Source: Acidobacteria bacterium RIFCSPLOWO2_12_FULL_66_21 (lineage in GTDB: Bacteria > Acidobacteriota > Vicinamibacteria > Vicinamibacterales > 2-12-FULL-66-21). From it: DNA of 64,000 bases. The notes beneath the pieces were generated by a model. It was not told where the DNA came from, did no database searches, and saw only the letters and a list, made by a program, of their open reading frames with translations. Positions 4,491-64,000 of the stretch are shown piece by piece. Location of the stretch: contig MELC01000086.1 in assembly GCA_001767455.1 (NCBI GenBank), positions 295,149-359,148 on the forward strand, in the 5' to 3' direction. Positions within the stretch are counted from its first letter, which is position 1, and each line of letters begins with the position of its first letter. Both the position numbers and the translations under genes were made by a program.

Positions 4491-4502
4491 GGGTTCTGCC
4501 AC

Positions 4503-5819: not shown

Positions 5820-5823
5820 GGCC

Positions 5824-6576: not shown

Positions 6577-6595
6577 TCCCGCTGCCGCGGTGACG

Positions 6596-7942: not shown

Positions 7943-7993
7943 GTCTCTACGTTCGACATTCGTCTTTGACCGGCCTTCTACGTTCCGCCTTTC
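7943..7993. repeat. ctacgtt-type short repeat at the MATE/ispG convergent junction
   Basis: Copies of a ctacgttc-like unit occur on both sides of a short spacer. The ispG stop codon and the last codons of ispG (KKGGT) are encoded by the repeat. It shares its unit with the arrays near 10.5, 14.4 and 49.3 kb. Confidence 0.55.
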
Positions 7994-9213: not shown

Positions 9214-9299
9214 GAAACGAGACACCCGATCATACCATCCAGCCGGCAGGTCTCCCCGGGCGACCGCCCGTAACTGCCGAGCGTCTAACCAGTTGCGCG

Positions 9300-9450
9300 T
9301 GGCGTGGGCCAGACCGGGGTCGCACCGGGGTCAGACCGGGGTCAGACCCCCCACCGGGCTGGCACGAGGTCGATAAGGGGTCTGACCCCAAATGGAAGGC
9401 TCGGGCGGCAAATCGGGGTCAGACCCCGACAGGGCGCCTGACCCCGGCGG
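9300..9450. repeat. Cluster of ggggtcagacccc palindromes
   Basis: The 13-bp palindrome ggggtcagacccc, or recognisable partial forms (ggggtctgacccc, cctgaccccgg), occurs about six times between ispG and the glycine-zipper gene. This is a REP-like palindrome cluster. No transposase is nearby. Confidence 0.7.
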
Positions 9451-9553
9451 ACGCAGGGGCGGTGATCTTGCATTGACCCCCGGATGGCCCGAGGAAAAGG
9501 CCTTCAGCGGACCGGGTGTCACACCGCGGTCCGACAGGCGAAGTGAGGGACAG

Positions 9554-10480
9554 ATGACTCGACAGCGATGGATTTCCCAATGTGGCGCGGCCGCAATCGT
9601 GATGGCGTTCGCGTCGGCCGCCGCCGCCCAGATGAACGTGACGACCTCCGACATCCAGCGACTGCAGGACGATGCGTACCAGGCAGGCGCCGACGTGTCC
9701 CGGCTGCGCTCGACCGACCCGAACCTGGCGGCGCAGCTGCAAACCGAGCTCGACGATCTGCGCGATGAAGTGGTGTATCTGAAAGTGAAGCTCCGCAAGG
9801 AGGGCAGCGTCAGCCGGAACGATTACGCGGACGTGCGCGATCGGATTCAGGATCTGCGCTCGCGCGCGCGCGGCGACTCCGGCACGGCGCGCCAGGGATC
9901 GGGCACGTGGGGCACGGGCACCTCCGGCGGCGTGAGCGGGGGAGTCGTCGGCAGCGAACGTCCGCAGCGCACCCACGGCGGGTCCACCGCGATTGCGTCA
10001 GGGCAGGAAATCGACGTGCGCCTCGAGGGCACGCTCGATTCCGGCACGGCGCAGGTCGAGCAGCGGTTCCAGGCGACGACGGTCGTCGATCTCTATCGCG
10101 GCAACGACGTGCTGATTCCCGCCGGGTCGATGCTGCGCGGCGTGATCAGTTCCGTGACGAAAGCCACGCGGACCGAGCGGAAGGGCAGCATGACGATCTC
10201 GTTCGATCAGATCACGATCCGCGGGCGCGCCTATCCGATGCGCGGCATCGTCACGCAGGCCATCGAGAGCGAAGGGATCAAGGGTGAGGCCACCCGGATC
10301 GGCGCGGGCGCCGGCGTGGGCGCGATCATCGGCGGGATCATCGGCGGCGTCAAAGGCGCACTCCTGGGCGTTCTCATCGGCGGCGGCGGCACGATTGCCG
10401 CGACCGAAGGCAAGGACGTGACGCTGCCCGCGGGAACGATCCTGCGCGTGCGCCTGGATCAGCCGCCGGGCGTGAAGTAA
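9554..10480 (+). CDS. Secreted glycine-zipper protein of unknown function
   Basis: A 308-residue protein with a signal peptide ending near AFASAAAAQ. A helical, coiled-coil-like region follows (about residues 30-95, rich in D, R, L and Q). Next come a Gly/Ser linker and a beta-rich segment containing DVLIPAGSMLRG. The C-terminus has a glycine zipper (GAGVGAIIGGIIGGVKGALL, near 250-275) before TLPAGTILRVRLDQP. The duplicated PAG(S/T) phrase, once on each side of the zipper, resembles envelope proteins with a Gly-zipper insert. A purine-rich gagggacag sits before ATG 9554. The frame is open upstream to 9392, but that stretch is only palindromic repeat. No function is assigned. Confidence 0.7.
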   Translation: MTRQRWISQCGAAAIVMAFASAAAAQMNVTTSDIQRLQDDAYQAGADVSRLRSTDPNLAAQLQTELDDLRDEVVYLKVKLRKEGSVSRNDYADVRDRIQDLRSRARGDSGTARQGSGTWGTGTSGGVSGGVVGSERPQRTHGGSTAIASGQEIDVRLEGTLDSGTAQVEQRFQATTVVDLYRGNDVLIPAGSMLRGVISSVTKATRTERKGSMTISFDQITIRGRAYPMRGIVTQAIESEGIKGEATRIGAGAGVGAIIGGIIGGVKGALLGVLIGGGGTIAATEGKDVTLPAGTILRVRLDQPPGVK

Positions 10481-10487
10481 ACGCCGT

Positions 10488-10530
10488 GACACGTAGAACG
10501 CTACTTTCTGCCTTCTACGTTTCTCATTGC
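10488..10530. repeat. cgtagaa-type repeat at the convergent end of hemL
   Basis: Inverted copies of cgtagaac/ttctacgt overlap the stop codon and final codons (VEGRK) of hemL. A hairpin here would serve both convergent transcripts, so it may act as a bidirectional terminator. Confidence 0.5.
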
Positions 10531-11811
10531 CTCCCTCGCGGCCGCGATGGTCTTGTCGATGTCGCGCGACGTGTGCGCGCCGGAGATGAACCACGCCTCG
10601 AACTGCGAGGGAGGCGGGTAGACACCGCGCGCGAGCATGCCGCGGAAGAACGCGGCGTACGCGCCGGTGTCGGCGGCAAGCGCGGACTGATAGTCGCGGA
10701 CCGGCTGATCCGTGAAGAACGGCGTCAGCAGCGATCCGAATGCGTTCACCTGGAGCGGAACGCCCCGCTGCCGTGCGGCGTCCGCCAGGCCCGCCGCGAG
10801 CCGCGCGCCGAGCTGGGCGAGATGCGTGTAGAGTCCCGGCGACAGTTCCTCGAGTGACCAGAGTCCGGCGGCCATGGCCAGCGGATTGCCGGACAGCGTC
10901 CCCGCCTGATAGACCGGCCCCGCCGGCGCCACCAGTCCCATCAGATCGGCGCGGCCGCCATAGGCGCCCACCGGCAGGCCGCCGCCGATGATCTTTCCGA
11001 GACACGTCAGGTCGGGGCGGATCCGGAAGATCTGCTGCGCGCCGCCCGCCGCCGCGCGGAACCCGGAAATCACTTCATCGAACACGAGGAGCGCCCCCTC
11101 GCGATCGCACACCGCCCGCAGTCCAGGGAGGAAGCCGTCGCCGGGCGGGACGAGCCCCATGTTCCCCGCGATCGGCTCGACGAAGATCGCGGCAATCTGC
11201 CCGCGGTGGCGGGCGAAGACCCGCTCGACCGAGTCGAGGTCGTTATAGCGCGCCAGCAGCGTGTCGCGCGCCGCGGCCGCCGCGACGCCGGGGCTCGTCG
11301 GCACACCGAGCGTCATCGCGCCCGAGCCGGCCTGCACGAGAAACGGGTCCGCGTGGCCGTGGTAGCAGCCTTCGAACTTGACGATCTTGTCGCGCTTGGT
11401 CGCGGCCCGCGCGACGCGCGCCGCGCTCATCGCCGCCTCGGTGCCGGAGCTGACGAAGCGCACGCGCTCCATCGACGGCATCAGCGTGGCGACGCGCTGC
11501 GCGAGGCGTGTTTCTAGCTCGGTCGGCGCCCCGAAGCTCGTGCCCTTCGCGGCGGTCGCGGCGAGCGTCTTCAACAACCCGCGCGGCGCGTGTCCGTGGA
11601 TGAGCGGCCCCCACGACATCACGTAGTCGATGTAGGTGTGGCCGTCCTCGTCCTCGATGCGGGCGCCCCGGCCCCGCACGATGAACACCGGCGTGGCGCC
11701 GACCGACTTGAACGCCCGGACAGGGCTGTCGACGCCGCCAGGCAGGATGCGCGACGCGGCGGCGAAGAGCTTGTCCGATCGCGGAGTGCGTGAACGCGGC
11801 TTGCGGAGCAT
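10501..11811 (-). CDS. hemL: Glutamate-1-semialdehyde 2,1-aminomutase
   Basis: PLP enzyme that makes 5-aminolevulinate from glutamate-1-semialdehyde, the second step of the C5 heme pathway. The protein is 436 residues from ATG 11811. The N-terminal segment FAAASRILPGGVDSPVRAF is diagnostic. The PLP lysine lies in TCLGKIIGGGLPVGAYGG and the cofactor-binding aspartate in LVFDEVISGFR. An 18-residue upstream extension of the frame is not homologous. This is the last gene of the heme operon, and its 3' end runs into a short-period repeat. Confidence 0.94.
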   Translation of the reverse strand: MLRKPRSRTPRSDKLFAAASRILPGGVDSPVRAFKSVGATPVFIVRGRGARIEDEDGHTYIDYVMSWGPLIHGHAPRGLLKTLAATAAKGTSFGAPTELETRLAQRVATLMPSMERVRFVSSGTEAAMSAARVARAATKRDKIVKFEGCYHGHADPFLVQAGSGAMTLGVPTSPGVAAAAARDTLLARYNDLDSVERVFARHRGQIAAIFVEPIAGNMGLVPPGDGFLPGLRAVCDREGALLVFDEVISGFRAAAGGAQQIFRIRPDLTCLGKIIGGGLPVGAYGGRADLMGLVAPAGPVYQAGTLSGNPLAMAAGLWSLEELSPGLYTHLAQLGARLAAGLADAARQRGVPLQVNAFGSLLTPFFTDQPVRDYQSALAADTGAYAAFFRGMLARGVYPPPSQFEAWFISGAHTSRDIDKTIAAAREAMRNVEGRK

Positions 11812-11868
11812 CCGAAAACGATAGCACGGTCTCGACAGGAGGAGAGAGGCAGAGAGAGCTGACACGAG

Positions 11869-12894
11869 TCACAACGCGCGGACGGCGTCCCGGGCGTAAT
11901 ACGTGATGATGATGTCGGCGCCGGCCCGGCGGATCGCGGTCAGCGTCTCCATCATCGCGCGCGGCTCGTCGAGCCATCCGTTGCGGGCGGCCGCCTTGAG
12001 CATCGCGTACTCGCCGCTGACGTGATATGCGGCCGTGGGCAGGCCGAACTCCGCCTTCACGCGCGCGATCACGTCCAGGTACGTCATCGCCGGCTTGACC
12101 ATGACGATGTCGGCGCCCTCCTCGATGTCGAGCTCGACCTCGCGCAGCGCCTCCTCGACGTTGCAGGGATCCATCTGGTGGGAACGGCGATCGCCGAAGG
12201 CCGGGGCCGAGTCTGCCGCGTCGCGGAACGGCCCGTAGAACGCCGAGCAGTACTTCGCCGCGTAGGACATGATCGCCGTCTGCGTGAAGCCTCCCTGATC
12301 GAGCGCGCTGCGGATGGCGCCGACGCGGCCGTCCATCATGTCGGACGGCGCGACGATGTCGGCGCCCGCCGCGGCGTGCGAGAGCGCCGAGCGCACGAGC
12401 TGCCCGACGGTCGCGTCGTTCTCGATTTCCTCGTCCACGAGAATGCCGCAGTGTCCGTGCGAGGTGTACTCGCAGAGGCAGACGTCGGTGACGACGAGCA
12501 GCCCCGGCACCTCGCGCTTCAGCGCGCGCACGGCCGACTGCACGGGCGCCTCGGGGTCGTAGGCGCCCGATCCAATCGGATCCTTCTCGTCCGGCAGGCC
12601 GAAGAGCAGGACGCCGGGGACCCCCTCGGCCTTCGCGGCCGCGGCCTCGCGCACGACTTCGTCGACCGACAACTGGAACACGCCCGGCATCGACCTGACT
12701 TCGCGGCGCTGCCCCTCCCCCGTGCAGACGAACAGGGGGTAGATGAACATGTCGGGCGACAGCCGCGTCTCGCGCACGAGCGATCGAATCGCCGGCGAGC
12801 GGCGGAGCCGCCGCGGGCGGCGGGGCAGATCGAGCGGCGCGCCCGGAGAGCTGGCTTCGTGACGGGTCTCGTGGAGGGAGCTCTTGGTGGTCAT
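11869..12894 (-). CDS. hemB: Porphobilinogen synthase (delta-aminolevulinic acid dehydratase)
   Basis: Condenses two 5-aminolevulinates to porphobilinogen. The protein is 341 residues. Schiff-base lysine context [10 protein letters not shown] and the [12 protein letters not shown] segment are present. [16 protein letters not shown] carries the cysteine-rich metal-site pattern of zinc-type enzymes. The first 25 or so residues are a basic, Pro/Arg-rich extension. It overlaps the cobA-hemD stop by four bases, so the two are translationally coupled. Confidence 0.95.
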
Positions 12895-48679: not shown

Positions 48680-48733
48680 GTTCCCAGTTTCCAGCCTTCT
48701 CAGCTGGAAGCTGGCAACTGGCAACTGGAACTA
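48678..48733. repeat. Inverted cttccag array at the aminotransferase/HD convergent junction
   Basis: cccagtttccagcc faces agctggaagctggcaactgg copies across a very short loop. It lies between two convergent stops, where a shared terminator would be expected. Confidence 0.75.
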
Positions 48734-49303
48734 ATATCCCATTTCCCGTTCGATTCCCCGGACGATGCGTTCGAGCTCGTCGACGAGCCTGCCGCCTCCC
48801 GCTTCCTTGTACGCGCGGACGAGTGAGTGGTAATACGCGAACACGTCGTCCGCGCCGGCGTTGAAGCGCGTCCACACCGCCTCGCCGACGTTTCGCAGGT
48901 CGCGGAGAATGGCGTAGGCGTTGTGGACCTTGTCCGCGGCCGAGACGCGCAGGCTCGGCGCCGGCAGGTGCCGCGCGTGCTCCACGAACGCCAGCTTCCG
49001 CTCGGCCCACGGCTTCTTCGGCTGATCCCAGCAGTCGGTGCAGTCCTCGACGATGCGCGCGACGGCGTCGCCGAAGCGCGTCCGGATGTCCTCGAGCCGG
49101 GCGCGGCCGCCGTGGTCCTCCGCCGCGTCGTGCAGCAGCGCCGCGATCGCCTCGTCCTCCGTCCCGCCGTCGTCCAGCACGATCGACGCGACGCCCATCA
49201 GGTGGCCGATGTACGGCGCCTCGGTGCCCTTGCGCGTCTGTGTCGCATGCACCTCGTGGGCGTAGCGGAAGGCGTCATCGAAGCGTTCGCTCAGGCGGGG
49301 CAT
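48731..49303 (-). CDS. HD domain phosphohydrolase (RelA/SpoT HD-like)
   Basis: A 190-residue HD protein from ATG 49303. Metal and catalytic motifs are YIGHLMGVASIVL, ALLHDAAEDHGG (H-D...E-D) and RVSAADKVHNAYAIL (D...N). This is the arrangement of the stand-alone RSH hydrolase (HD_4) group, which can act on (p)ppGpp or NADPH. No synthetase domain is attached. Function is inferred from motifs. It is convergent with the aminotransferase. Confidence 0.8.
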   Translation of the reverse strand: MPRLSERFDDAFRYAHEVHATQTRKGTEAPYIGHLMGVASIVLDDGGTEDEAIAALLHDAAEDHGGRARLEDIRTRFGDAVARIVEDCTDCWDQPKKPWAERKLAFVEHARHLPAPSLRVSAADKVHNAYAILRDLRNVGEAVWTRFNAGADDVFAYYHSLVRAYKEAGGGRLVDELERIVRGIEREMGY

Positions 49304-49830
49304 AGGACCTCCGAACGTGAAACGTGGAACTGAGAACATAGAACGTAGAATGCAGAATCACGGGCGGTAGCAAGGACAGATCATTCTACATTCTGAGTTC
49401 GTCCTTGTTCAGCCGCGGTGCCGCGACGAGGCCACATCACGCCCGCCGCGCCTCGGCCGGACGCGCGGAAAACGCGCACCTTCGGCGCGTGCCTGACGGT
49501 CCCGCTTCGGCTGGGGTTTTCCGAGCGCCGGTAGAGAATCGGTTGGGCAACCCGGTTTTCCGATCACCAGGGACGAAACAGCGCCTGCGCGGATCGGACC
49601 GCCTGCGGTGCGGTTTTCGACCTGACGCCCCGCGCTGGCCGCATCGCGCTGCGGTCCTGACGTGGCCTCGTCGCGGCGTCTCCCTGCCGGGCGGCTATCC
49701 CTTGGCGTGGCGGCGACACTGATTTCCCGGTTCGCGGAAGCCGGCCGCGGACAGGCAGTGTCGGCGACGCGCCCTCGGGAGCCGCTGAACAAAACCCGTG
49801 TTCTACATTCTTACGTTTTACAATTCACGG
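49304..49830. repeat. Repeat-rich spacer: cgtagaa array and a 258-bp element with 16-bp inverted ends
   Basis: Two parts are visible. About 49312-49400 is an inverted array of acgtaga/cattcta units. From 49420 to 49677 lies a stretch bounded by perfect 16-bp inverted repeats, gccgcgacgaggccac and its complement, extending imperfectly to about 25 bp. Inside are three cggttttcc/cggttttcg phrases. A frame open at 49405-49722 lacks protein character. The end (49797-49820) repeats ttctacattcttacg before the next promoter. Confidence 0.55.
49819..49824 (+). promoter_or_regulatory. -10 element giving a leaderless deacylase mRNA
   Basis: TACAAT ends six bases before ATG 49831, the same geometry as at the desaturase gene. 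No clear -35 is seen. Confidence 0.5.
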
Positions 49831-50319
49831 ATGTCCGATCCTCACCAGGTCTACGACGCCCTCGATACGCTTGGCATCAGCTACGAGACATACGAGCACC
49901 CGGCGGTCTTCACGGCCGAACAGGCGGCGGGGCACTGGGCCGCGATCCCGGCGACTCCCCTCAAGAATCTGTTTCTCAGGAACAAGAAAGGCGATCGGCA
50001 TTACCTCGTCATACTCGGTATCGACAAGCAGGCCGATCTGCGTCAACTCGTGAGGGTGATTGGAGACGACCGCTTGAGCTTTGGATCGCCCGAGCGGCTT
50101 ATGGCTCGTATGGGGTTGACGCCAGGCTCAGTCTCGCCGTTTGGACTGCTGAACGATTCGTCGCATTTGGTGCAGGTGATCATCGACGCCGATCTGCGCA
50201 ACGCCGAGCGGCTGATCTTCCATCCGAACATCAACACCCACAGCCTGACGATCGCATTCGCCGACTTCGAGAAGTTCCTCGCCTCGGTCGGCAACACCGT
50301 ACGATACGTGCAGATCTAG
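49831..50319 (+). CDS. YbaK/ProX-type aminoacyl-tRNA deacylase
   Basis: A 162-residue stand-alone editing domain related to the prolyl-tRNA synthetase INS domain. It shows YETYEHPAVFTAEQA, KNLFLRNKKGDRHYLVIL with the conserved Lys, GSPERLMARMGLTPGSVSPF, and FHPNINTHSLTIAF. These fit the ProXp-ala/YeaK group that clears Ala-tRNA(Pro) or related mischarged tRNA. The stop codon lies within the left end of a 165-bp inverted-repeat element. Confidence 0.85.
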   Translation: MSDPHQVYDALDTLGISYETYEHPAVFTAEQAAGHWAAIPATPLKNLFLRNKKGDRHYLVILGIDKQADLRQLVRVIGDDRLSFGSPERLMARMGLTPGSVSPFGLLNDSSHLVQVIIDADLRNAERLIFHPNINTHSLTIAFADFEKFLASVGNTVRYVQI

Positions 50320-52514: not shown

Positions 52515-53450
52515 TCATTCAAGTGGCAAGCCGAACTTCAGCGCAACCTTGGCTATTTCCCGCTCGTACCTGATCAGTTTCGATCGGCGCGCCGACTGTA
52601 AAGCACTCTTGAGCGCGTCGGTCGCCTCCACTTTTCTGCCGTCCAGAGCACAGGCCTCTGCGATGCGACGGTACTCGAACGCGCGACGGAAGCTGCCAGG
52701 CGGTCGGCAGAGCAGGCATGCCCTGAAAAGCCGCTCGGCTTCCCGATATCGACCCTTGCTCAGCGCGATCACTCCAAGCTGATGCCGCGCCGAGGTCTTT
52801 TGGTCTTCGGACGCAGCGCCCTTTTCGACGCGCCGAAGCATGACGGCGGCCTCGGCGAAGCGATGGGACGTCACGAGTAGAACGCCTGTTTGGTAGCAGG
52901 CCCAATAGTAGACGTCCGAATTGAAAGGTTTCTGTGATTCAAGTCGTTTGCGCAGCGCGCTCAGGCGGCTCAGGCCGCTGGCTCGCCGTCGACGATGGTC
53001 GTCAATCGAGGCCAGTCGAATGATCGCGGCGGCTCTTTGAGTCTCATCGTGGGCGATGGTGCAGAGGGCCTGAGCGATCGCGAATGCGGAATCAAAGTCC
53101 CCCAAGGCATCGAATGCAACCGCCAGGCCGTACAGAACCTCGGTGGCGGAGCGCTTCAAATGCGCTTTGTTCACCGTCAGGACCGCGCTGCCGAGCCCCG
53201 TGGTCCGAAAGGCCTGAAGATCCGACGACAGACCATAGGTAACGTCTGCGACGATGGCTTCCGGCTCAACCTGCAGAACTTTGGCGATGGCCCGAATCGT
53301 GGACCGAAATGCGGGATCGCCGGCCTCGAACTTCTGCCAGGCGCGTGTGGAATAACCAGCGGAATCTGAGGCCTCGGCAATCGTGAGACAGAGCCGTTCC
53401 CGAAGGACGCGAATCAGGCTGCCATTCAGTGGTTGTGATCGTTGTCGCAT
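52515..53450 (-). CDS. XRE-type helix-turn-helix regulator with TPR-like repeats
   Basis: A 311-residue protein. Residues about 10-65 are an XRE HTH (IRVLRERLCLTIAEASDSAG, STRAWQKFEAG). The remainder is helical with TPR-like pairs, for example EVLYGLAVAFDALGDFDSAF and RHQLGVIALSKGRYREAERLF. This domain order is common in regulators that sense a small ligand or peptide through the TPR part. It is divergent from the 53.6-64 kb cassette with a 155-bp control region between, so it is the natural candidate regulator. Confidence 0.75.
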   Translation of the reverse strand: MRQRSQPLNGSLIRVLRERLCLTIAEASDSAGYSTRAWQKFEAGDPAFRSTIRAIAKVLQVEPEAIVADVTYGLSSDLQAFRTTGLGSAVLTVNKAHLKRSATEVLYGLAVAFDALGDFDSAFAIAQALCTIAHDETQRAAAIIRLASIDDHRRRRASGLSRLSALRKRLESQKPFNSDVYYWACYQTGVLLVTSHRFAEAAVMLRRVEKGAASEDQKTSARHQLGVIALSKGRYREAERLFRACLLCRPPGSFRRAFEYRRIAEACALDGRKVEATDALKSALQSARRSKLIRYEREIAKVALKFGLPLE

Positions 53451-53560
53451 TCTCGAGCGTCCACGCGCCCAGTCAATCAGACGTGCGTACGCGTGCCGTT
53501 TCGACGGACACCGGACGTATCCGGTCGGCCGCGGACAAGCCGCATCCTACCAGAGTGCCG

Positions 53561-53589
53561 TTGAGAATTCGCTCGTGGCTCAGAACAAT
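53561..53589 (+). promoter_or_regulatory. Promoter of the 53.6-64 kb cassette
   Basis: TTGAGA (53561-53566) and AACAAT (53584-53589) with a 17-bp spacer. GTG 53606 lies 16 bases after the -10, so the leader is short. It lies in the control region shared with the XRE gene. Confidence 0.5.
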
Positions 53590-53605
53590 GCGCTAAAGTG
53601 GGCTT

Positions 53606-54700
53606 GTGTTGGATTCGACGGCTCTTCTCACACACCCGACGACGTGGCACAGGACCGCAATCGCAGTACCCAGAGGCTGTGTATTGCAGTTTGGCGCAGT
53701 CATGCCAGCAGCGGAACACCTCGACGACCCTCGTAACCCCGCGCGCGCGGGCCTCGTTCGGCATGGAGGGCTTGGCAAGCCCACGAGTCACGTTCCGGCC
53801 CACTATAAACGCTCCTATCGCGATCATCTTAAGATGTTCGTGAACCAGCAGGGTTCGCGCCGCGCACGGAGTTCGGCGTTCTTGGTGTTGGGCTCTCGAA
53901 ACTCCTTTCAGAACCTCTTGCTGCCGATTTGGCTGGCCGGCCGTTTCATTCACCGCCTCGACGAGCCCTGGCAGACCACGACGTATACAGCGCTCTGTCG
54001 AGTGCAGTCCGGAACGCTGGTCATCCAAAAGGTGCGATTTCGCGAATCATCGAGCGGCATCGTCGTCAAGGGCGAATCGGGAGAGCCGGTGCAGTTGGCT
54101 GTAGTTGGCCAGCCGATCTTGTTTCGGTCGGAGATTCCGCCTGTCCCGTTGCTGGCGGCGATGACCTACGATCAGCGACACATCGTGCATCTGTTATGGG
54201 AGGACTGGCAGACGCAGGCACTTCCGGAGCTGAGGTGGCATCGAGATGCTCATGACGAACTGATGAGCGCGTTCATGGCCAACTTGAATGCCCCGGTCGC
54301 CACACGCGCCGCAGCATTGGCGGACATCGTCGCCCGCCGAGGGCTGCAGGAAGAAGACGGCTACTTACACAGTTCATTAGGGTTGACACCGGACGGTAGT
54401 GTGGTCCTGCTGATGATGACGGGCTCGTTGGGCGACCACGGCCGGATGCAGCGCAGACTCGGCGCGGAGTCGGCGATCCTGCTCGACAACGGAGGCTCGG
54501 TGGGAGCTGCGTACTGGCCTGCCACTGCGGACCCCCGGGGGTTGGATGACGTCGCGCCGCGCGTCATTGGCGCTGGCAGTTACTTCCGCGACTCGGCGCT
54601 GACGACGCTGGTGTTTGAGCTCGATCGCAACTTTCTGGAGGCGCCGTTTGCGCCGCGGCGGCCCGGCGACGACGCCTTCACCGACTGGTCAGTATCATGA
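53606..54700 (+). CDS. Unknown protein with phosphodiester-glycosidase (NAGPA)-like C-terminus
   Basis: A 364-residue protein. The last 120 residues recall the NAGPA/phosphodiester glycosidase domain: LGLTPDGSVVLLMMTGS, then a helix, then GAESAILLDNGGSVGAAYW in place of the usual LDGGGS motif. GAGSYFRDSALTTLVFEL follows at the end. The N-terminal 90 residues are basic and unassigned. GTG 53606 is the longest start; ATG 53702 is possible. No signal peptide is seen, unlike secreted NAGPA proteins. Its TGA overlaps the ATG of the HD-ROK gene, so the two are coupled. Confidence 0.5.
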   Translation: MLDSTALLTHPTTWHRTAIAVPRGCVLQFGAVMPAAEHLDDPRNPARAGLVRHGGLGKPTSHVPAHYKRSYRDHLKMFVNQQGSRRARSSAFLVLGSRNSFQNLLLPIWLAGRFIHRLDEPWQTTTYTALCRVQSGTLVIQKVRFRESSSGIVVKGESGEPVQLAVVGQPILFRSEIPPVPLLAAMTYDQRHIVHLLWEDWQTQALPELRWHRDAHDELMSAFMANLNAPVATRAAALADIVARRGLQEEDGYLHSSLGLTPDGSVVLLMMTGSLGDHGRMQRRLGAESAILLDNGGSVGAAYWPATADPRGLDDVAPRVIGAGSYFRDSALTTLVFELDRNFLEAPFAPRRPGDDAFTDWSVS

Positions 54701-57700
54701 CGGACCTTCCTTTGTCTCATGACGGTCAGTCTAACCTGCCATCCTGGTGGTCTCGACGCCTGCAGGCAATCGAGGCCGAGTTCGATCAGCTCGTTCGCGA
54801 GAGACTTGAGGGCGCGGCTCCCATTCTCTTGCAGGCCAAGGAACTTGCCAGAAAGACCCACGAGCGACAAGCGCGTGAAGGCGGTGGACTCTACATCATT
54901 CACCCGCTGCGGGTCGCGATCTCGCTCGTTCGCGACCTCAGGCTGACTGACGTGACGCTCATCCAAGCCGCGCTGCTTCATGATGTCATCGAGGATGGCG
55001 GCTGCACCGAAGAGTCTCTGTCTGCCCAGTTCGGGCGTGGTGTCGCAGGACTCGTGGCGGCTGTCAGCCGGCAGGCTGACGAGAAGAGACCCCCGCAGGG
55101 CGATTCCTCGGAGTCGCCGTATTTCAGGCGCATCCGTGCAGGTGGCCAGGACGTGATCGCGCTCAAGATTGCCGACAAGATCGACAATCTCCGCGATGCT
55201 TTGTATCATCCCCGGCGGTCGAAGCGGCAGGTCCTCGTCAACGAAACGCACCCGGTCTACGGGCCGTTGCTCGAGTCGATCACCGATCCCGCTTTGCGAG
55301 ATCGGTCGCAAGCGCTCCTGCGCGGCGCCACGGAGGATCACGGGCTTGCGTCGCTGATGGGTGACCTGCACAGGGAAGCGCTGCGAGTGCGTTCGGGTGA
55401 ACGCCTGGCCGTGCCCCCCGCGTGCCTCGACGTCCCGCTCTTGCACTACCTGTTGTTCAACCCGAGCCTTGCTTGTTGGCTGAGCGACGACGGCGTTCAG
55501 CTCACGAAAAGTGTCCCGTCGCCGATCGACCTCGCGTGCAACGTCGCCCGGAAGTACGCCGCATTCATCGAGCGTGAGGGAGTCGGCGAGCTCCTCGAGG
55601 TCGCCGGAGTCCCGCGCGAGCTGACGGCGAAGGGAAACCGCCAGCACTGGGATCGCGTACTCAAGCTGGTGAAAGAGCTGGCTCGTCTCGCCACTGAAGA
55701 CGAGACGCCCCTCTGGTGTCAACCGGCCTTTTCTCCTGAGGCGTCGCGTTGGCTGTTCCTGCTGGTGCACTCGTTGCTGTTTCGGCCTGCAAACTGGATC
55801 TTCCCCATGTGGCACGGCGACTACGGAGCGGCGCTGGCGGGGCGACTGGAGCGGAGCCCGTACATCCACAACCATTCACAGTCCGAGACGGACGCCTTTC
55901 ATGGTTTCCTGCAACTCCTCCTGATCAGTCGTCAAGCGTTGTGGCGTTTGTCGACAGGTGCCGGAACGCGCGCCCGAACCAGTGCTCTGGTCGACGCCGC
56001 GCATCGATGCGGCGGTGTCTCATCCGAAGTCTTGTGGTCGATGAGACTGCTGAGCGAATACCTCGATGTCGTCACGGAGTTGGACGCGAGCGCCGCGGCG
56101 TCTCTGATGCCAGGCTTCACGGACGTGTGGAAGACGGTCGTCGCAGCCAGCTTCGATCCCGGCGCACTTGCAGGCGCGCTGGACGGGTCGCGCGCGGCAT
56201 CGAGCGATGTCGAGATCGTGGGCCTCGAGGAGGTCCGCGAGCTGTTCGCGCAGCATGGTCTGTCACGTCAGCTCGACCTGCTCTTGCGTCTCTTGACGCG
56301 GGAGTGCCAGGCGTCGTCTCGTGATGGATTGGCATGGATTTCGTTCGACACTTCCGAGTTTGCGAAGCGGCAGGAACTGTTTGACGCTCGCAACGGCTTG
56401 CGACTGGATGACCGGTCCGCTTTCGCAGATCTGGAGTCAGCGGGCATTCAGGCGCGCGCGGAGTCCGCCGACGGCATGTTCGTCCTGAGAGTCGCTCCAG
56501 CCAAGCGCTTCGCTCTTCAGAATCGGCTGCCTGAATTGTCGGCAGACGAGCGGGAGGAGATCGGCCGCAAGGGCTACTCCGCGGTGGCGATTTTCGACGC
56601 TCTCGTCGGCGAGGCATTCACGCCATCCGAGCCGGTCTGGGTCCCTCGCGTCTACAGGGTGCTCGATACGATCGCCGACCTCGATGCGGACAACGTGCAA
56701 CCCATAGAGGTCGAATTCAGCGGCCCCCAAGACCACGCATCATTCGTCGCCTATCTCCCTGTTCCGCGGCCGGGCGAGCCGTCGGCGTCACGGCAGGCAA
56801 ATCGCAAGCACCTGCTGGCCCGGTACATCGCGGCCCAGATTTACAACTACTCCGTCACGCGCCGCGTGCTCCTTGCGCGTCTCGAGTGCGGCGTGCTCGA
56901 GGAGTCGAGAGCTTCGCACGGCTTCTCGAATCCAGAACTCCTGAACGCGATTCGCCTCGCGGAGGCCGGGTGTGGGTATCGGGGCGTCTTTGGCCAGTTC
57001 ATTGAGAGCTTCAACTTCTCGCCGTTTCAGATCTCGACGGGTACCGATGGAGACAACCAGCTCGCGTTCGGCGAGGCCGACATGCGATCGGGCCTGTTCC
57101 TCGGCATCGACATCGGAGGCACGGACGTCAAGTTCATGCTGTTCGCCGGTGGGAAGCCGCAGATGGTGCGTGACACGGATGATCTCGGACGGGTGCCGAC
57201 CTTTGCGGGCAGGGTGCCTCCTCGCGTCGATGCCGCAGCGTTCTGTGAACGCCTGATTCTCGCGCTTGTCGATTGGCTTGCCGACGATGACATATGGCGC
57301 GGGATTTCTGGCATCGGCATCTCATGGCCCGGAGCCGTTCGGGAGAACCGCATTGTCTGCTTCTCGGGCACTCTGGGCAGTCTCGAGTACGACGGTAAAG
57401 GGTTCGAGGCAACATCGCCGGCGGCTGTCATTCACGCGTTTCCCTTCGTGGAGGTCTTCAGAAACGCCCTTCGAAAGGTCGCCGATGAACGCGGCTTCAC
57501 GCTGAATCCGAATCTGACCCTGACGCTCGAGAACGACGGGAATGCCGAAGCCTTCGGCAACTATTGCGCCCGTGTTCTCGCGCACAAGAACCGATCCGGC
57601 GGGAAGTTGGTGGTCAAGCTCGGAACGTCGCTGGCGGGCTGCCGCGTGCTGCCGAACAGTGCGATTGCGTCGGAGGTCGGTGAATTCTCGAAGATTGTAT

Positions 57701-58845
57701 TGGACCTGGCCGCGCCACCGGTGACGCTACCGACCGGCGTCGTTATGCCGGCGGGCGTTGCCCGTGAGTACGTTTCGTCGTTGGCGGTGCGCAATCTGTC
57801 CCGCACGTTTGTGTTCGACCCTCTTCGTCAGCTTTTTGAACCTCATGCCGGTCCTCATCGGCTTTTTGGACCTCATGCCGGGAGGAACGGCGAGGCCCAA
57901 CGAGACACGCGCATCGAGGCCGTTGAACTCGGTGACCTGCTGGCGCTGTGGCGTGCGGTCGGCGGCGATGGCGACTATCTCACGGAGCTCGCCCTCACCG
58001 ATAACAAGCCGTCGAACGCGTCTGCGGACCGAATCGCCTCGCGCATTCGGGAGGCGTTGAGTCTCGGGAGGCTGGAGGACGAGCTGGCGCGGTACGTGCG
58101 CCTGCGAGGCGAGGATCGAAGGTGGGCCGGCGTCACGAAGTGGCAGCGCGGTTGGGAGCGCCTCCATTGGTTGAGCACGGGCACGCCGGAGAGCTACCCG
58201 ACTCTCGCTGACGGCCTGGCTCCCTCGTCATTTCCGTACGACCATCTGGCGACCATGGTTCCCGGTGTGGTTGCGTTGTTCAGTCAAGTGGGGTTGCAGC
58301 TCGCACACCTGGTGGCCGCTCTGTACAACATCTATCGACGCCATTCGTTCGAAGAAGTGATTCTGGCCGGCGGCGTGCTGTCGGGCGTGACTGGCGAGTT
58401 GGTCAAGCGGCAGGCCGAGGCGTTTCTCGCTCGATACTACGACAAGATCTACGGGGCGGACCGGTATCTTCCCCTGGATGCGCTGCAACTCGCGGACAGC
58501 GCGAGCCGCGACGTGAGCGGGCCGCTGGGTGCGGCGATGCTCGCCAACCGCTCGCACAAAGCCGCCCGGCTGTCGGCGATGCGACGCGTCGTCGATTTCA
58601 TGGTCCGGGATTCGTCGCCAGGAGAACAGGTTCGCCTTGCGGATGTTACCGAGGCTCTTCGCGAGCGACACATCCTGGTGGCCGAGATCGATCTGCGCGA
58701 CTACCTGTTGACCAAGGTCAACGAGTCGTTGTTGATACCACAGAACGACGGTGTGAGCTTCACACGAGCGCTCGAGACGTCTCCGAAGGCGTCGGAGTCG
58801 ATCACCTGCGCGCGGGAGCTACCGGCGCGAATGCCGGGTAGCTGA
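54697..58845 (+). CDS. Fusion of RSH-type HD hydrolase and ROK-like sugar kinase domains
   Basis: A 1382-residue protein. Residues about 45-230 are a SpoT/MESH1-like HD domain with all key motifs: GLYIIHPLRVA (H69), ALLHDVIEDGG (H95, D96, E99, D100) and IALKIADKIDNLRDAL (D160, N164). Residues about 230-795 are unassigned and mostly helical. From about 796 an actin-like ATPase domain begins with FLGIDIGGTDVKFMLF, followed by LENDGNAEAFGNYC, VVKLGTSLAGCRV, ASEVGEFSKIVLD and EEVILAGGVLSGVTGELV. This is the ROK layout without the CxCGxxGC zinc motif. The C-terminal 110 residues look helical. Intact motifs suggest active hydrolase and kinase, but this is inference. Confidence 0.7.
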   Translation: MTDLPLSHDGQSNLPSWWSRRLQAIEAEFDQLVRERLEGAAPILLQAKELARKTHERQAREGGGLYIIHPLRVAISLVRDLRLTDVTLIQAALLHDVIEDGGCTEESLSAQFGRGVAGLVAAVSRQADEKRPPQGDSSESPYFRRIRAGGQDVIALKIADKIDNLRDALYHPRRSKRQVLVNETHPVYGPLLESITDPALRDRSQALLRGATEDHGLASLMGDLHREALRVRSGERLAVPPACLDVPLLHYLLFNPSLACWLSDDGVQLTKSVPSPIDLACNVARKYAAFIEREGVGELLEVAGVPRELTAKGNRQHWDRVLKLVKELARLATEDETPLWCQPAFSPEASRWLFLLVHSLLFRPANWIFPMWHGDYGAALAGRLERSPYIHNHSQSETDAFHGFLQLLLISRQALWRLSTGAGTRARTSALVDAAHRCGGVSSEVLWSMRLLSEYLDVVTELDASAAASLMPGFTDVWKTVVAASFDPGALAGALDGSRAASSDVEIVGLEEVRELFAQHGLSRQLDLLLRLLTRECQASSRDGLAWISFDTSEFAKRQELFDARNGLRLDDRSAFADLESAGIQARAESADGMFVLRVAPAKRFALQNRLPELSADEREEIGRKGYSAVAIFDALVGEAFTPSEPVWVPRVYRVLDTIADLDADNVQPIEVEFSGPQDHASFVAYLPVPRPGEPSASRQANRKHLLARYIAAQIYNYSVTRRVLLARLECGVLEESRASHGFSNPELLNAIRLAEAGCGYRGVFGQFIESFNFSPFQISTGTDGDNQLAFGEADMRSGLFLGIDIGGTDVKFMLFAGGKPQMVRDTDDLGRVPTFAGRVPPRVDAAAFCERLILALVDWLADDDIWRGISGIGISWPGAVRENRIVCFSGTLGSLEYDGKGFEATSPAAVIHAFPFVEVFRNALRKVADERGFTLNPNLTLTLENDGNAEAFGNYCARVLAHKNRSGGKLVVKLGTSLAGCRVLPNSAIASEVGEFSKIVLDLAAPPVTLPTGVVMPAGVAREYVSSLAVRNLSRTFVFDPLRQLFEPHAGPHRLFGPHAGRNGEAQRDTRIEAVELGDLLALWRAVGGDGDYLTELALTDNKPSNASADRIASRIREALSLGRLEDELARYVRLRGEDRRWAGVTKWQRGWERLHWLSTGTPESYPTLADGLAPSSFPYDHLATMVPGVVALFSQVGLQLAHLVAALYNIYRRHSFEEVILAGGVLSGVTGELVKRQAEAFLARYYDKIYGADRYLPLDALQLADSASRDVSGPLGAAMLANRSHKAARLSAMRRVVDFMVRDSSPGEQVRLADVTEALRERHILVAEIDLRDYLLTKVNESLLIPQNDGVSFTRALETSPKASESITCARELPARMPGS
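57831..57881. repeat. 30-bp tandem duplication inside the ROK domain
   Basis: gctttttgaacctcatgccg at 57831 recurs, with one change within the 21-bp copy, at 57861. The period is 30 bp, so ten codons are added without a shift (LFEPHAG then LFGPHAG). Confidence 0.7.
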
Positions 58846-58846
58846 C

Positions 58847-61800
58847 TTGCCGAACGTGATCTCTATGGCCATGCAGCCCGACACAAATCGCTTCGCTGAT
58901 TCGCGAGAGCAGGAAGAGCGGGAATTCAGGACGTTCATCACGAAACTGCTGCGAGCGCAGCGGTACGAGTTCCTCGAAGAACAGAGCCTCTTCTCTTCGG
59001 ACACGCTCCGCCGCACGATGGATCAACTGTGCGACATCATCGCGGAGGAAGTGTCGGCCGACTCCTGCACGATTCACCTCAAGCTCTACGACCCCAGGGA
59101 TCTCCTGTCACCGTCGCACGAGACAGCGCCGCAGAGCAAGATACCGCGTTGGAACCCTGCGTTGGACCGTTACATAGCGGACGTGGCCGCGAAGTCGGCG
59201 ATTCACCCCGCCGGCAGCGCCAACGCCAAGCGCGCGTTCGCCGTACTGCAGGAAGCGCGGTGGCGATCGGCATCGAGTACCCTGGCCTACCCCTACTGGA
59301 AGTACCCGAAAGGCGTCGCCCGGCTGGTCGCCTCCAACTGGTCTGGACCCTGGAAGAGACTCTGTCGCTCGGCGAGTCCGGGAGATCAGGACACGGGTTT
59401 CGTGACTCTCGATTCCGGCATCACGGCGGACATCGTTCAGGACAACCTGGCCAGGATCCGCGATCCGCTGAGTATTCGCGCGTCCAGGGATCTCCGGAAA
59501 CTGGGCGCTCTTGACCATCTCGTCTGGGACAACAAGGGGTGGCGGGGGTCGTTCAAGAACTTCTACGGTACTCCGATTCGCATTCACGCCGGCGGTGAAG
59601 TGATCGGTATCCTCAAGGTCGAGAACAAGCGAGAGATGGAGGAAGACAGGAAGCCGATCGACAAGATGTTGCATGGGTCCGTCAACGAGCTGCTCACAAC
59701 GACCAGCGGATTGACCAACTTCGAGCAAGCGATTCTGACTCTGGCCCAATCGAAACGAGATGTGGCACATTGCCGGGACATATCCCTGCTGGCACTGGCG
59801 TATTTGACGACAGATTTGCGGAGTGTCAAGAACAAAACAAAGAGGACCCTTGGCGACGTCGTCTTTGTCGCATATCCGCGTCGTTACGAGTCGATTCAGC
59901 CGCCGAAGAACAAGGTACTGCGCGATGTCGGCCTCGCGGCAGGCGGCGCCGTTCAAATCACTGCGGCGAGTATCCCCGATGAAAAGAAGTTGTGGGCTCT
60001 GCTGGACGACCGGCCGGACGATCTTGTCACCCCGGAACGGTATAGGCAGGTCAAGGAATTCTACGACGCAATCGCGTCACATTTCGAGACGAGCGGGGGT
60101 GTTACACCACTGAAGCTCGGAGGCGTCACCGTTACCTTTGAGGCGTTTTGGAAACCGCGAGGGGGCCACGTGGGCGGCGTGACGCTCCCGCACTGGCACT
60201 ATCGGGCCAAGGTCAAGAAAAGAAACGGTGCACCGATCTTCCTCTTCATCATGGCGCCGCCGGGCGGCAGTCGCACCGGCAAGATCTCATCTGCCTTGTT
60301 CAAAAGCGGCTGCCCGGAATGTGCCAGTGATATCGCCGCAGTGTACAGGCGCCTGGCCAGGCTGCCATCGAGGCCCGATCCTTCCGCGAAATCACGACGC
60401 AATGAGTTCGAAGGCTTCATCTCACGAAGGAACGGCGAGAGAATTGCACTCCAACGCGTCGTAAAGCACACCCGGCATACCCATTACGTGATCGATTGCC
60501 TAGTGGATCACTGGGCGGCGCGCGTCGAGTCGCTGAACCAGTGCGTGCCGATCCGGGAGTTTACACCCGAGGACACCAAGAAGCTGTGTTGGGCGGCTCT
60601 CGAGATCGGCAAGCTCGTCGAGCGTGAGATCTCCTACCGGGCGAATCATTCCGACGATCCCATTCCACTCACCGCGATGGAGTTCTATCGCATTCCGATC
60701 AGCGATCTCAGCTTCGTCGACGGCTTGCAGGCGCGTAGGGCCAACGCGAAAAAGGTCAAGGTACACATCGATCACCATCTGCAGAACACGTTATACACGA
60801 TGCGGATGCAGGACAGCATTCAGTTCAAGTCGCGTGTCAAGAGCCACCGCAGCTATCTGGGCCGTCTCGGAGAGCGCCACGAGGGGTTCGTTCGCGGCAA
60901 TCTGGCTGTATGGTTCTACTTGCTCTCGTTGAGCTTGTTGAAGATGCCGAACAGAGCCAAGGACACCGAACTTCGTCTATTCCGAAAGGCATTGTCTCTA
61001 TTTGGCAAAGATGTCGAGCGGCTCTTGAAGCAGGGAAGCGAGATCGATCCGGCAATCCGGAAGAATACCGCGACGAACATCAGCAGGCTCGCGGGTCAGC
61101 TTGCCAAGATCCTCGGTGACGCGAGATTCGGAAGCCCGCCGTTCTCTGAAATCAGGAACATCCGTGGGAAGAGGCGGCGCCTGAGGCTCAAGAGTCTCCA
61201 ACGCAGAGTTGTCAGAAACTTGCGGGCCGAGAACCTCCTTGACGCGGGCAACTCACGACCAAAGCGTGGCGGGCTCAAATGGGAGGGCGAGGCCGCTGTT
61301 GCCCTGGAGAAACTGATCTTCAGGAACTACGATTCCTACGCGGTCGCGGCGGCGTCACTGCTCTGTCAGTTGGTGAATCTCGGCAACATCCGCGGCTACT
61401 TGGCCTTTTACGAGGGTTGTTTCAACCTCCGGAACCTTTTGGCGTCGTCCGATCGCGATATAGAAGACACACCGCAGTTCGGTCCTCTTCGGGATCTGTT
61501 TCGGCGGACACGCGACAAGACCAGGGTCACCAAGAAGGTCACCAAGACCGTGTGGGTCGAGCTGTTGGAATTCGTCGAGACGCACGACACCGACGCGTTC
61601 GAGGCGCTGACGGGACTACCGGGGCCAAAGTTGTGGTTAAGCCCGAGCGGAATCTACAAAAGAATCAGAAACCTGAGCCACACCCTCTGGCAGCAGCGTG
61701 ATGTGGCGCACCTGGACTGGGATCTCGGTCGCTTCGATCTGCTTGGGTGTCGGCTCAACTGCTTGTACAAGAGTCAGGTGTTTGCGACATACGAGCAGCT

Positions 61801-63115
61801 ATGGAATAGGGGAGATCCTTTTTTTGGGATGAACACCGAGAGAATGGACAAGACGGCGGCTCAGACGCGGGCGTTTTTCGAGGAGCGTCCACATGTCAGG
61901 CAGCGTTGGCTCTGCACCCGAACGAAATACTTCAAGGGCGCCGACTATCACGCCCTGCAGATCGGCGCGCTGGTCGATCCGCGTGCCGTGCATGAGGCGT
62001 ATTGGGACGACGACGGCTACAATCTGAAACGCGTGCGACTTCTGATGGGTCGGATGTTCGCAGACTTGGATCCGAAGAGCGCTGACGAGTACAAGCGTCT
62101 GGCTCGAGCTCGCCATCATCTTCGCTGGGAGTACGGTGATTGGTTTGAAGTGGCGTCAGAGGCCGTCCGCAGTAGAGCCATCCCCGACTACCATCCGGAC
62201 GACGTGATGCTGGGCGTCGGATCGTTTCTTGGGGAAGCGGCGGTCGACTATCTCATGGGCCGACTCGACAGATTCCGCACAGCATCAGGCAAGGCTCACC
62301 CGGCTCCCGCGGCGGTCATCAAGGAAGCCCGCGACGCGATGCAGACGCTGTGGAAGTCTCTTCTGGAGGTACTGCGATTCGGCGAAGACTACTCGAAGCA
62401 ACTGGAGGCATGTTGGACTGGGCGCCAGCCAGCAGGGCAAGCGTTTTCGTTTGATGTAGGTGGGATGAACGTCGTCGGGTTCAGAGACGCGACCTCGTCG
62501 CTCTATAGTGCCATGACGAAGCTCGACCGCGATGGTCGAACTCTGGTCATTGAGAAGGAACATTATGCGAAGGTCTTTCGGCGTCGCCGAATCGGTTCCA
62601 AGGTCCCGCTCATATTCGTTCGGTCTGGCACGTGCCGCCGATTGCGTGGGATCAAGGCTCCTATGGAGCAGGATTCCTGGGTCAGTGTGTACTGGGCTTT
62701 GAACCAATTCAGACGCGAGCAACGGGACTATCTTTTCACAAACCTCGAGCGTCGTACGAATGAGAACGTCCTGCAGAGGCTTCAGAACTATGTGTTGCTC
62801 TGCGATCAGGAATACATCAACAAGTGCGACCGAGGCCACGCGGATAAAGAGCTGGCGGGCTGGACGTCGTACGATCTGTTTTACTACCTTCGCTCGTTGA
62901 TACCGGCGGAGATTCAGATCCGCACGATGCTGGCCGACACCATGGCAGAGCAGTACCACGGGCCGGTGTACAAGGGCTCGCCGCCAAAGGGCACGGAATT
63001 CGCGCGAGAACAGATGACAAGGGTCGCCGTTCAATTGGACAATCTCGATAAGGAACTGGAGATCGACTTCGAAGACTACATGAATCGGTATCACGTTCCC
63101 CGGAGGTCAGAGTAG
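58847..63115 (+). CDS. Large protein with GAF-like N-terminus and RelA/SpoT-like C-terminal signature
   Basis: A 1422-residue protein, from TTG 58847 or ATG 58865, right after the HD-ROK gene. Residues about 50-280 resemble a GAF sensor (TMDQLCDIIAEEVSADSCTI; YGTPIRIHAGGEVIGILKVE). The end (from residue 1353) reads PAEIQIRTMLADTMAEQYHG, the E-x-Q-I-R-T ... E..H.. core of RelA/SpoT nucleotidyltransferases. An earlier DLGRFDLLGCRLNCLYKS (near 965) recalls the D..G.R step of the same family, but about 390 residues separate them. The middle is basic, helical and unassigned. It may be an alarmone-type synthetase with a large insert, or a degenerate relative. Confidence 0.55.
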   Translation: MPNVISMAMQPDTNRFADSREQEEREFRTFITKLLRAQRYEFLEEQSLFSSDTLRRTMDQLCDIIAEEVSADSCTIHLKLYDPRDLLSPSHETAPQSKIPRWNPALDRYIADVAAKSAIHPAGSANAKRAFAVLQEARWRSASSTLAYPYWKYPKGVARLVASNWSGPWKRLCRSASPGDQDTGFVTLDSGITADIVQDNLARIRDPLSIRASRDLRKLGALDHLVWDNKGWRGSFKNFYGTPIRIHAGGEVIGILKVENKREMEEDRKPIDKMLHGSVNELLTTTSGLTNFEQAILTLAQSKRDVAHCRDISLLALAYLTTDLRSVKNKTKRTLGDVVFVAYPRRYESIQPPKNKVLRDVGLAAGGAVQITAASIPDEKKLWALLDDRPDDLVTPERYRQVKEFYDAIASHFETSGGVTPLKLGGVTVTFEAFWKPRGGHVGGVTLPHWHYRAKVKKRNGAPIFLFIMAPPGGSRTGKISSALFKSGCPECASDIAAVYRRLARLPSRPDPSAKSRRNEFEGFISRRNGERIALQRVVKHTRHTHYVIDCLVDHWAARVESLNQCVPIREFTPEDTKKLCWAALEIGKLVEREISYRANHSDDPIPLTAMEFYRIPISDLSFVDGLQARRANAKKVKVHIDHHLQNTLYTMRMQDSIQFKSRVKSHRSYLGRLGERHEGFVRGNLAVWFYLLSLSLLKMPNRAKDTELRLFRKALSLFGKDVERLLKQGSEIDPAIRKNTATNISRLAGQLAKILGDARFGSPPFSEIRNIRGKRRRLRLKSLQRRVVRNLRAENLLDAGNSRPKRGGLKWEGEAAVALEKLIFRNYDSYAVAAASLLCQLVNLGNIRGYLAFYEGCFNLRNLLASSDRDIEDTPQFGPLRDLFRRTRDKTRVTKKVTKTVWVELLEFVETHDTDAFEALTGLPGPKLWLSPSGIYKRIRNLSHTLWQQRDVAHLDWDLGRFDLLGCRLNCLYKSQVFATYEQLWNRGDPFFGMNTERMDKTAAQTRAFFEERPHVRQRWLCTRTKYFKGADYHALQIGALVDPRAVHEAYWDDDGYNLKRVRLLMGRMFADLDPKSADEYKRLARARHHLRWEYGDWFEVASEAVRSRAIPDYHPDDVMLGVGSFLGEAAVDYLMGRLDRFRTASGKAHPAPAAVIKEARDAMQTLWKSLLEVLRFGEDYSKQLEACWTGRQPAGQAFSFDVGGMNVVGFRDATSSLYSAMTKLDRDGRTLVIEKEHYAKVFRRRRIGSKVPLIFVRSGTCRRLRGIKAPMEQDSWVSVYWALNQFRREQRDYLFTNLERRTNENVLQRLQNYVLLCDQEYINKCDRGHADKELAGWTSYDLFYYLRSLIPAEIQIRTMLADTMAEQYHGPVYKGSPPKGTEFAREQMTRVAVQLDNLDKELEIDFEDYMNRYHVPRRSE

Positions 63116-63165
63116 ACAGACCCGGTGTGGAGCGCAACGGTAGGCATCGAATACGGGAGAGACAC

Positions 63166-64000
63166 ATGGACCACGGACTCAGTGAACGAGGTGGAGAGGT
63201 TCTGGCTGCGGAGATCTGTCGGTATTGCCGTCAGACCGTGCTCAAGGCCATGGACGCTGTGCGGAGCCGGATGCGGGGGTCCGACCGCCTGGCCCTGAAG
63301 GAAGCTGTCGTCGATCCCAGGACGGACAAGTCCGAGCTGAACTTGACCAAGGGGATCGATCGCGATGCGGAAGATCTCATCGTGACGGCCCTGCAAAAGA
63401 AGTTCTCGAAGCTCAAGGGTATCGGCTCATTCACGGTGTTCTCGGAAGAACTTGGCCTCCGCTCTTTTCCCGATGCGGGCAAGGAGGATGAGTCGGACTG
63501 GGTCGTCTTCATCGATCCGATCGATGGCACGGAGTTCATTGAGACCCTGCAGGGAGGATGGGCGCTCGTGGCCGTCTACAATCGCAGGGCGGACGAGGTC
63601 GTCGCGACGGTCGCCGGCGACATCTTCCTCAACCGCCTGTACTGGGGGATGAAGGGCGCCGTTCCGGAGTGCCTGGACTTGGTGACTCATTCCTGGTTCA
63701 AACTCGACGGTGGACCCAACCCCAGGCGCTCGTTGGCTGGAGCGCGCGTCAACTTTCTGACGACGAAAGTGTCTCGATTTCTGTCGGTCGCCCAGCAGAC
63801 ACGCCTCCTCAAGGCCATCGAAAAGGGTGACGGCCGGATCAATCTGTCGTGGGGTTCGAACATGATCATTCAAGTAGCGGCGGGATACGCGGACGCCGCC
63901 GTCGAGTTCACGAAGGGCTTCGCGACCTACGACGTGCTGCCGGGCTTGTACCTGGGTGAGCAGGCCGGACTCACGATCCTCGATCTGGACGGCAACCCCG
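63166..64000 (+). CDS. Inositol monophosphatase family protein (3' end outside window)
   Basis: The frame runs open from ATG 63166 to the window end, giving 278 residues. IMPase-fold metal motifs are clear: KGIDRDAEDLIV, the SEE of TVFSEELGL, and VVFIDPIDGTEF (DPIDGT). Late residues ATYDVLPGLYLGEQAG stand for the usual WD...G..I..EAG. Such enzymes remove phosphate from inositol phosphates, sugar bisphosphates or 3'-phosphoadenosine nucleotides. It lies 50 bp after the RelA-like gene in the same direction, so it is probably part of the cassette. Confidence 0.8.
   Translation, partial: MDHGLSERGGEVLAAEICRYCRQTVLKAMDAVRSRMRGSDRLALKEAVVDPRTDKSELNLTKGIDRDAEDLIVTALQKKFSKLKGIGSFTVFSEELGLRSFPDAGKEDESDWVVFIDPIDGTEFIETLQGGWALVAVYNRRADEVVATVAGDIFLNRLYWGMKGAVPECLDLVTHSWFKLDGGPNPRRSLAGARVNFLTTKVSRFLSVAQQTRLLKAIEKGDGRINLSWGSNMIIQVAAGYADAAVEFTKGFATYDVLPGLYLGEQAGLTILDLDGNP

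Follow-up and report, generated by a model that had tools for sequence, protein, structure and literature searches.

Gene organization and genomic setting

The window analyzed here is a stretch of 64,000 nucleotides, bases 295149-359148 of a 369 kb contig in a 6.5 Mb genome. Toward its 3′ end are five genes, all with open frames (Table 1). Four are on the plus strand and encode a phosphodiester glycosidase-like (NAGPA-like) protein, an HD-ROK protein, a very large protein (defined as the “giant”) and an IMPase-family phosphatase. The fifth encodes an XRE-TPR protein. An earlier note on this DNA described the four plus-strand genes as coupled by overlaps or short gaps behind one promoter, with a divergent HTH-TPR gene. 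The layout was confirmed: the first two genes overlap by 4 bases, gaps of 1 and 11 bases follow, and the XRE-TPR gene is divergent. The proposed single promoter may correspond to a promoter-like site at ~53561-53589 (+), a consensus match only, as is a second site for the other direction at ~53449-53476 (-). No unusual RNA fold was detected in the intergenic region (z -0.54).

Reading past the window end, as the earlier note had suggested, gave the 3′ end of the IMPase gene (134 bases beyond the window, the in-window part being 63127-64000), an integrase fragment and type I restriction-modification (RM) genes. The order 3′ of the cassette is integrase fragment, HsdM, HsdS, IrrE-type peptidase, DUF4411 and HsdR. 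On this part of contig C86 (L002 14690-20000 and L003 3443-10210), the type I restriction genes are thus interleaved with the IrrE-type peptidase and DUF4411, and a Peptidase_S24 domain is found at the HsdR end. The G+C content of the cassette is 0.58-0.63, compared to 0.67 for the first 52 kb of the window. In PADLOC, the cassette matched no model of a defence protein beyond weak hits to RmrA (HTH part) and PDC-M02B.

A stand-alone, SAH-like RSH-type HD_4 hydrolase (48731-49339, minus strand, 202 aa, 1.2e-22) is encoded about 4-5 kb upstream. It is near a YbaK-type aminoacyl-tRNA editing gene (49798-50319).

Table 1. Features of the cassette in the window and of its counterpart on the Aminicenantes contig (L009, own coordinates).
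Feature	Coordinates	Strand	Remarks
XRE-type HTH + TPR protein	52515-53450	-	311 aa; HTH_31 4.4e-6, TPR_2 2.1e-8
Divergent intergenic region	53451-53605		155 bases, between XRE-TPR and NAGPA-like genes
NAGPA-like protein	53606-54700	+	at most 364 aa; start possibly further downstream; first of the four
HD-ROK protein	54697-58845	+	1382 aa
RSH-type HD hydrolase domain	54835-55269	+	residues 47-191 of HD-ROK
Hexokinase/ROK-type (ASKHA) kinase region	57085-58566	+	motifs and predicted N-lobe fold
Giant protein	58847-63115	+	1422 aa; TTG start as listed
GAF-like sensor domain	58979-59632	+	PF01590, below cut-off
Most conserved giant block	60548-60946	+	AALEIGK..EREISYRAN..DDPIPLTAMEFYRIPISDL
SYNTH-like domain, first part	61655-61801	+	KRIR (938), DLLGCR with presumed catalytic Asp964
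SYNTH-like domain, second part	62858-62974	+	GW loop (1338), EIQIRT-x10-H-x3-YK (1355-1376)
IMPase-family phosphatase	63127-64134 (window-equivalent)	+	335 aa; PF00459 2.8e-18
L009 HD-ROK homologue	377-4375	same strand as rest	37% identical to window's along whole length
L009 giant homologue	4439-9928	same strand as rest	1829 aa, 36% identical to window's
L009 IMPase	10016-10978	same strand as rest	63% identical to window's
L009 NAGPA-like gene	10981-11922	same strand as rest	28% identical to window's

The HD-ROK protein

The RSH hydrolase domain proposed earlier for this protein is well supported. The HD_4 profile matches the window protein at 9.6e-18 and its Aminicenantes homologue at 1.8e-17, and alignment to Rel_Seq (4.8e-23) keeps every catalytic residue. 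The conserved positions are R60, H69, H95-D96, E99-D100, D160 and N164, with roles as in Rel_Seq. With both the profile match and the His, His-Asp, Glu-Asp, Asp and Asn residues, the domain belongs to the RSH hydrolases.

The second region had been called a ROK kinase. Four motifs, DIGGT (from about residue 805), LENDGN (944), KLGTS.AG (974) and ILAGGV (1222), are invariant in both HD-ROK homologues. A model of the N-lobe built from the two sequences, with modest scores (pLDDT 51, pTM 0.55), matched yeast hexokinase in Foldseek (E 2.5e-4); hexokinases were the best hits and ROK-type kinases came next. Structural comparison gave a VIA Z of 11.2 to hexokinase (rmsd 3.4, 140 aligned) and of 9.7 to ManNAc kinase (rmsd 2.8, 119 aligned). 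This fold match, with phosphate and adenosine motifs in the expected order, places the region in the ASKHA kinase fold. The ROK family profile (PF00480; cut-off 22.9 bits) scored the window protein at 10.7 bits and had no match in the Aminicenantes homologue; profile comparison with the ROK proteins of the same genome did not rise above shuffles. Since PF00480 stays below its cut-off, the kinase part of the original claim stands in a broader form, and the region is better called hexokinase/ROK-type (ASKHA).

The giant protein

The giant has a GAF-like N-terminus and, at its C-terminus, a SYNTH-like domain. Between them is a long stretch for which no relatives are known; it includes the most conserved block, which matched no known family. 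The GAF domain proposed in the earlier note scores weakly and recurs at the equivalent position of the Aminicenantes giant (PF01590 0.013 and 0.005, or 16.4 and 17.8 bits with the cut-off at 22.4).

A RelA-like signature had also been proposed. The RelA_SpoT Pfam profile is weak, at 0.072 for the whole giant and 0.0024 and 0.037 for the C-terminus (13.8 to 18.6 bits, with the cut-off at 27). More sensitive comparisons back the signature. In hhalign, alignment of the C-terminal 126 residues with a RelA set gave E 1.3e-5 and a score of 38, which none of 200 column shuffles reached (best 22). The KRIR/DLLGCR part aligns to the corresponding earlier stretch of the same set, with a score reached by none of 150 shuffles. 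The motif E-x-Q-x-RT-x10-H-x3-YK has identical spacing in both giants and in a bona fide RelA (that of L010, below); by chance it would be expected 1.5e-6 times in the two giants. The halves are in the right order and ~350 residues apart, so we read them as one RelA-type SYNTH domain, divergent in sequence and interrupted by an insertion of roughly 350 residues. Its assignment to SYNTH follows from the homology of both halves and the conservation of the catalytic Asp and the E-x-Q-x-RT motif.

We compared the donor site in the two-giant alignment to the residues named for FaRel2 (R-x-K, S and K; PMC11782079). R-x-R is kept, and the Ser and Lys are not conserved in the two giants. The G-loop Tyr is replaced by Trp. 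Because of these replacements, SYNTH activity is not assured. An AlphaFold model of the giant C-terminus from the two-sequence alignment had a pLDDT of 33.5. The matches to HD and RelA did not vanish in profile searches and comparisons, and the split proposed in the earlier note, with an RSH hydrolase and a RelA-type synthetase on two very large proteins, holds: HD is on HD-ROK and the SYNTH-like domain on the giant.

The IMPase, NAGPA-like and XRE-TPR proteins

The IMPase-type phosphatase was correctly recognized, as it belongs to the inositol monophosphatase family by profile and by its metal ligands (E107/E108, D130, D133 and D269), which are invariant in its relatives. The NAGPA-like assignment is consistent with a weak PF09992 match (1e-4) repeated at the equivalent position in the Aminicenantes homologue (0.046), at 23 and 14.4 bits against a cut-off of 25. 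Enzymes of sugar-phosphate type (kinase-like, IMPase and NAGPA-like) do accompany the HD and RelA-type domains, as had been claimed. The XRE-TPR protein is likely a regulator or sensor. Over 208 aa, its TPR part shares 35% identity with a STAND-TPR-NUDIX protein adjoining a close relative of the IMPase (L011, below).

A second cassette in a distant genome

We scanned about 85,000 genomes using an alignment of the window IMPase and a distant relative as the query, and found four close relatives (61-67% identity) and seven from Actinobacteria. One Aminicenantes contig carries the full four-gene set on one strand (Table 1). The NAGPA-like gene, first in the window cassette, has moved to the other end and is last. 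The flanking genes, a ComM-like gene upstream and a methyltransferase downstream, are of chromosomal type and unrelated to those of the window; no defence genes flank this cassette. It also lacks the XRE-TPR gene, which is therefore outside the conserved core. The G+C content of the Aminicenantes contig is 0.40, and given such different base compositions the split between the two cassettes is probably old.

These are the only two complete cassettes known; as the scan used the IMPase pattern alone, cassettes without that pattern may exist. Whole-genome searches found no giant besides these two in 297 and 396 (overlapping) genomes of its own phylum, in 392 genomes of the phylum of the L011 genome, in 246 of that of the L010 genome, or in 142 of the Aminicenantes genome's class. 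No other HD-ROK was detected in 162 genomes of its own order (161 others), and an IMPase of such similarity is absent from 296 other genomes of the phylum. Searches for the giant and HD-ROK in plasmids, phages and viral contigs returned nothing except ordinary SpoT-type HD proteins. We found no paper describing the cassette, and its architecture is described nowhere as far as a search of open-access literature showed.

Several of the Pfam scores above are below cut-off, as they would be if unrelated genes with random domain look-alikes had come to lie side by side. However, four rare genes recur together, at 28-63% identity and in changed order, in a distant genome, and the domain matches fall at equivalent places in both homologues. 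The Aminicenantes cassette rules out a chance neighborhood, to which we give almost no weight. That rare genes stay together across such divergence is strong evidence for a functional unit: the four genes form a real, conserved cassette, and the idea of the earlier note survives.

Neighborhoods of related IMPases

The three other close IMPases, of the same clade as that of the window (62-67% identity), adjoin conflict-type proteins directly and on the same strand. In a Thermodesulfovibrionia genome (L010 6600-15343), one strand encodes RyR, SLATT, TrkA-RyR, IMPase, a RelA-TPR-SLOG-RyR fusion, NUDIX and TIR. This IMPase is 62% identical to that of the window and adjoins the canonical RelA-TPR-SLOG-RyR protein; the locus is a candidate nucleotide-signalling conflict operon. 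RelA nucleotidyltransferase domains have been reported among the components of prokaryotic conflict systems (PMC7159879). In two Planctomycetota/Phycisphaerae MAGs, the relatives adjoin the STAND-TPR-NUDIX protein (L011 4934-9020) and a TIR-STAND protein (L012 1571-3761). Thus, the closest IMPases elsewhere sit in nucleotide-signalling conflict loci, with RelA-SLOG-RyR, TIR and STAND neighbors.

No HD-ROK or giant was found near the actinobacterial relatives (L013-L019). In Nocardia and Nonomuraea (L014, L016, L018 and L019, ~8500-10760; L005 12598-14690), the gene for a distantly related IMPase of this group comes after a conserved gene whose product is XRE-like at its N-terminus (RYAAGLSQ..AAERYNEVTGN). 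An Undibacterium plasmid has a more distant IMPase whose neighbors are only hypothetical proteins.

These neighborhoods bear on whether the cassette could be a metabolic pathway for a sugar phosphate or cyclitol phosphate. The kinase, IMPase and NAGPA-like proteins would make, remove or unmask a phosphorylated sugar, with the HD and SYNTH-like domains recruited as regulators or acting on a sugar nucleotide. Three modules do have folds of sugar-phosphate type, and the SYNTH site is divergent. On the other hand, the related IMPases have RelA, TIR and STAND proteins as neighbors instead of pathway genes. In neither genome is the cassette accompanied by transporters, glycosyltransferases or further genes of such a pathway, and the HD domain has the catalytic residues of an RSH hydrolase. 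We consider this explanation unlikely.

Possible function of the cassette

FaRel/ATfaRel sets a precedent for the pairing of an HD hydrolase and a RelA-type toxin, and small alarmone hydrolases neutralize RelA-type toxins in toxSAS-antitoxin pairs (PMC11782079). RelA-type toxins can be activated by phage and pyrophosphorylate tRNA (PMC9712102). By analogy, the cassette may be built around a pyrophosphokinase/hydrolase pair, a synthetase/hydrolase switch like those pairs, serving growth arrest under stress or phage attack; we judge the chances of this reading to be even. The GAF-bearing giant would sense a trigger, and its SYNTH domain would transfer pyrophosphate from ATP to a 3′-OH acceptor (a nucleotide or the end of a tRNA), so that growth slows. 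By removing this modification, the HD domain would hold the system off. The kinase-like part may sense or phosphorylate a ligand of sugar type, while trimming or recycling of the phosphorylated product could fall to the IMPase and the NAGPA-like protein. The role would be a stress or anti-phage growth arrest comparable to that of toxSAS-antitoxin pairs. The HD domain, SYNTH homology, kinase fold, IMPase with its ligands and four-gene co-conservation are established by sequence or fold; that the giant is catalytically active, which acceptor it uses, how the reactions are ordered, what triggers them and what role they serve are all inferred.

In favor of a switch are the Aminicenantes cassette, the HD and SYNTH domains, the neighbors of the IMPase clade, the integrase fragment and RM genes downstream, the lower G+C and the toxSAS precedent. 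Against it are the divergent SYNTH site, the pLDDT of 33.5, the lack of a PADLOC match, the chromosomal-type flanks in Aminicenantes and the existence of only two cassettes.

A defence role is plausible. In its fullest form, the cassette would be a system of anti-phage defence or conflict that has not been described before. The giant would act as a pyrophosphokinase gated by its GAF domain and would produce a toxin or messenger in the form of a modified nucleotide, tRNA or sugar-nucleotide. The product would be processed by the RSH hydrolase-kinase fusion, a phosphatase of the clade common to RelA-SLOG-RyR and TIR-STAND loci, and the glycosidase-like protein. We offer this only tentatively. 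Alternatively, the cassette could serve stress or starvation responses and not defence, as an accessory circuit of alarmones whose GAF and TPR sensors answer an internal metabolite. The presence of these domains, the host-like setting in Aminicenantes and the intact IMPase are consistent with such a circuit, but a mobile conflict system better accounts for the extreme rarity and for the adjacent integrase fragment and RM genes, which makes this alternative rather improbable.

The earlier note had envisaged a system that makes and removes a phosphorylated nucleotide or sugar signal. The conserved cassette, the split hydrolase and synthetase and the sugar-phosphate-type partners agree with this; the product may be a signal, and the role may be one in defence. 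If the switch reading is right, RelA-type signalling is not confined to single enzymes and small toxin-antitoxin pairs but also takes the form of a multi-enzyme cassette that brings its own hydrolase, kinase and phosphatase. The cassette also suggests that nucleotide-based conflict systems have an overlooked partner in the IMPase clade, and conservation across two distant bacteria provides an immediate, testable set of catalytic residues.

Comparison with known systems

Long RSH proteins (Rel, RelA and SpoT) share with the cassette the set of HD hydrolase and SYNTH. They have both in one chain with TGS and ACT, whereas the cassette has the domains on two proteins with extra modules and no TGS or ACT match. 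The genome encodes its own long Rel of 720 residues elsewhere, so the cassette is an addition, an accessory circuit. Two further SYNTH-type proteins are present in the genome, at C38:214901-215242 (L033) and C29:11294-11585 (L034, L035); the latter is in two frames and may be frameshifted.

The IMPase has the metal-ligand motifs and family profile of the IMPase/CysQ/SuhB superfamily, and falls in a group of its own, in which a VEF[TA]KGFA motif surrounds the last metal ligand. With the SLOG/RyR/TIR/SLATT/NUDIX conflict loci, exemplified by L010, the cassette shares this IMPase clade adjoining a RelA-type synthetase. It is without SLOG, RyR, TIR, SLATT and NUDIX, and has HD and kinase domains instead.

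Like toxSAS with a hydrolase antitoxin (FaRel/ATfaRel) and the fused CapRel, the cassette combines a RelA-type synthetase and an RSH-type HD hydrolase in one operon, is accessory to the housekeeping Rel and, in the window, has a mobile/defence setting. It differs in that there is no small antitoxin: the two enzymes lie within 1400-residue proteins with GAF, kinase-like and unknown domains, the SYNTH domain is apparently split by an insertion, and IMPase and NAGPA-like proteins are its partners.
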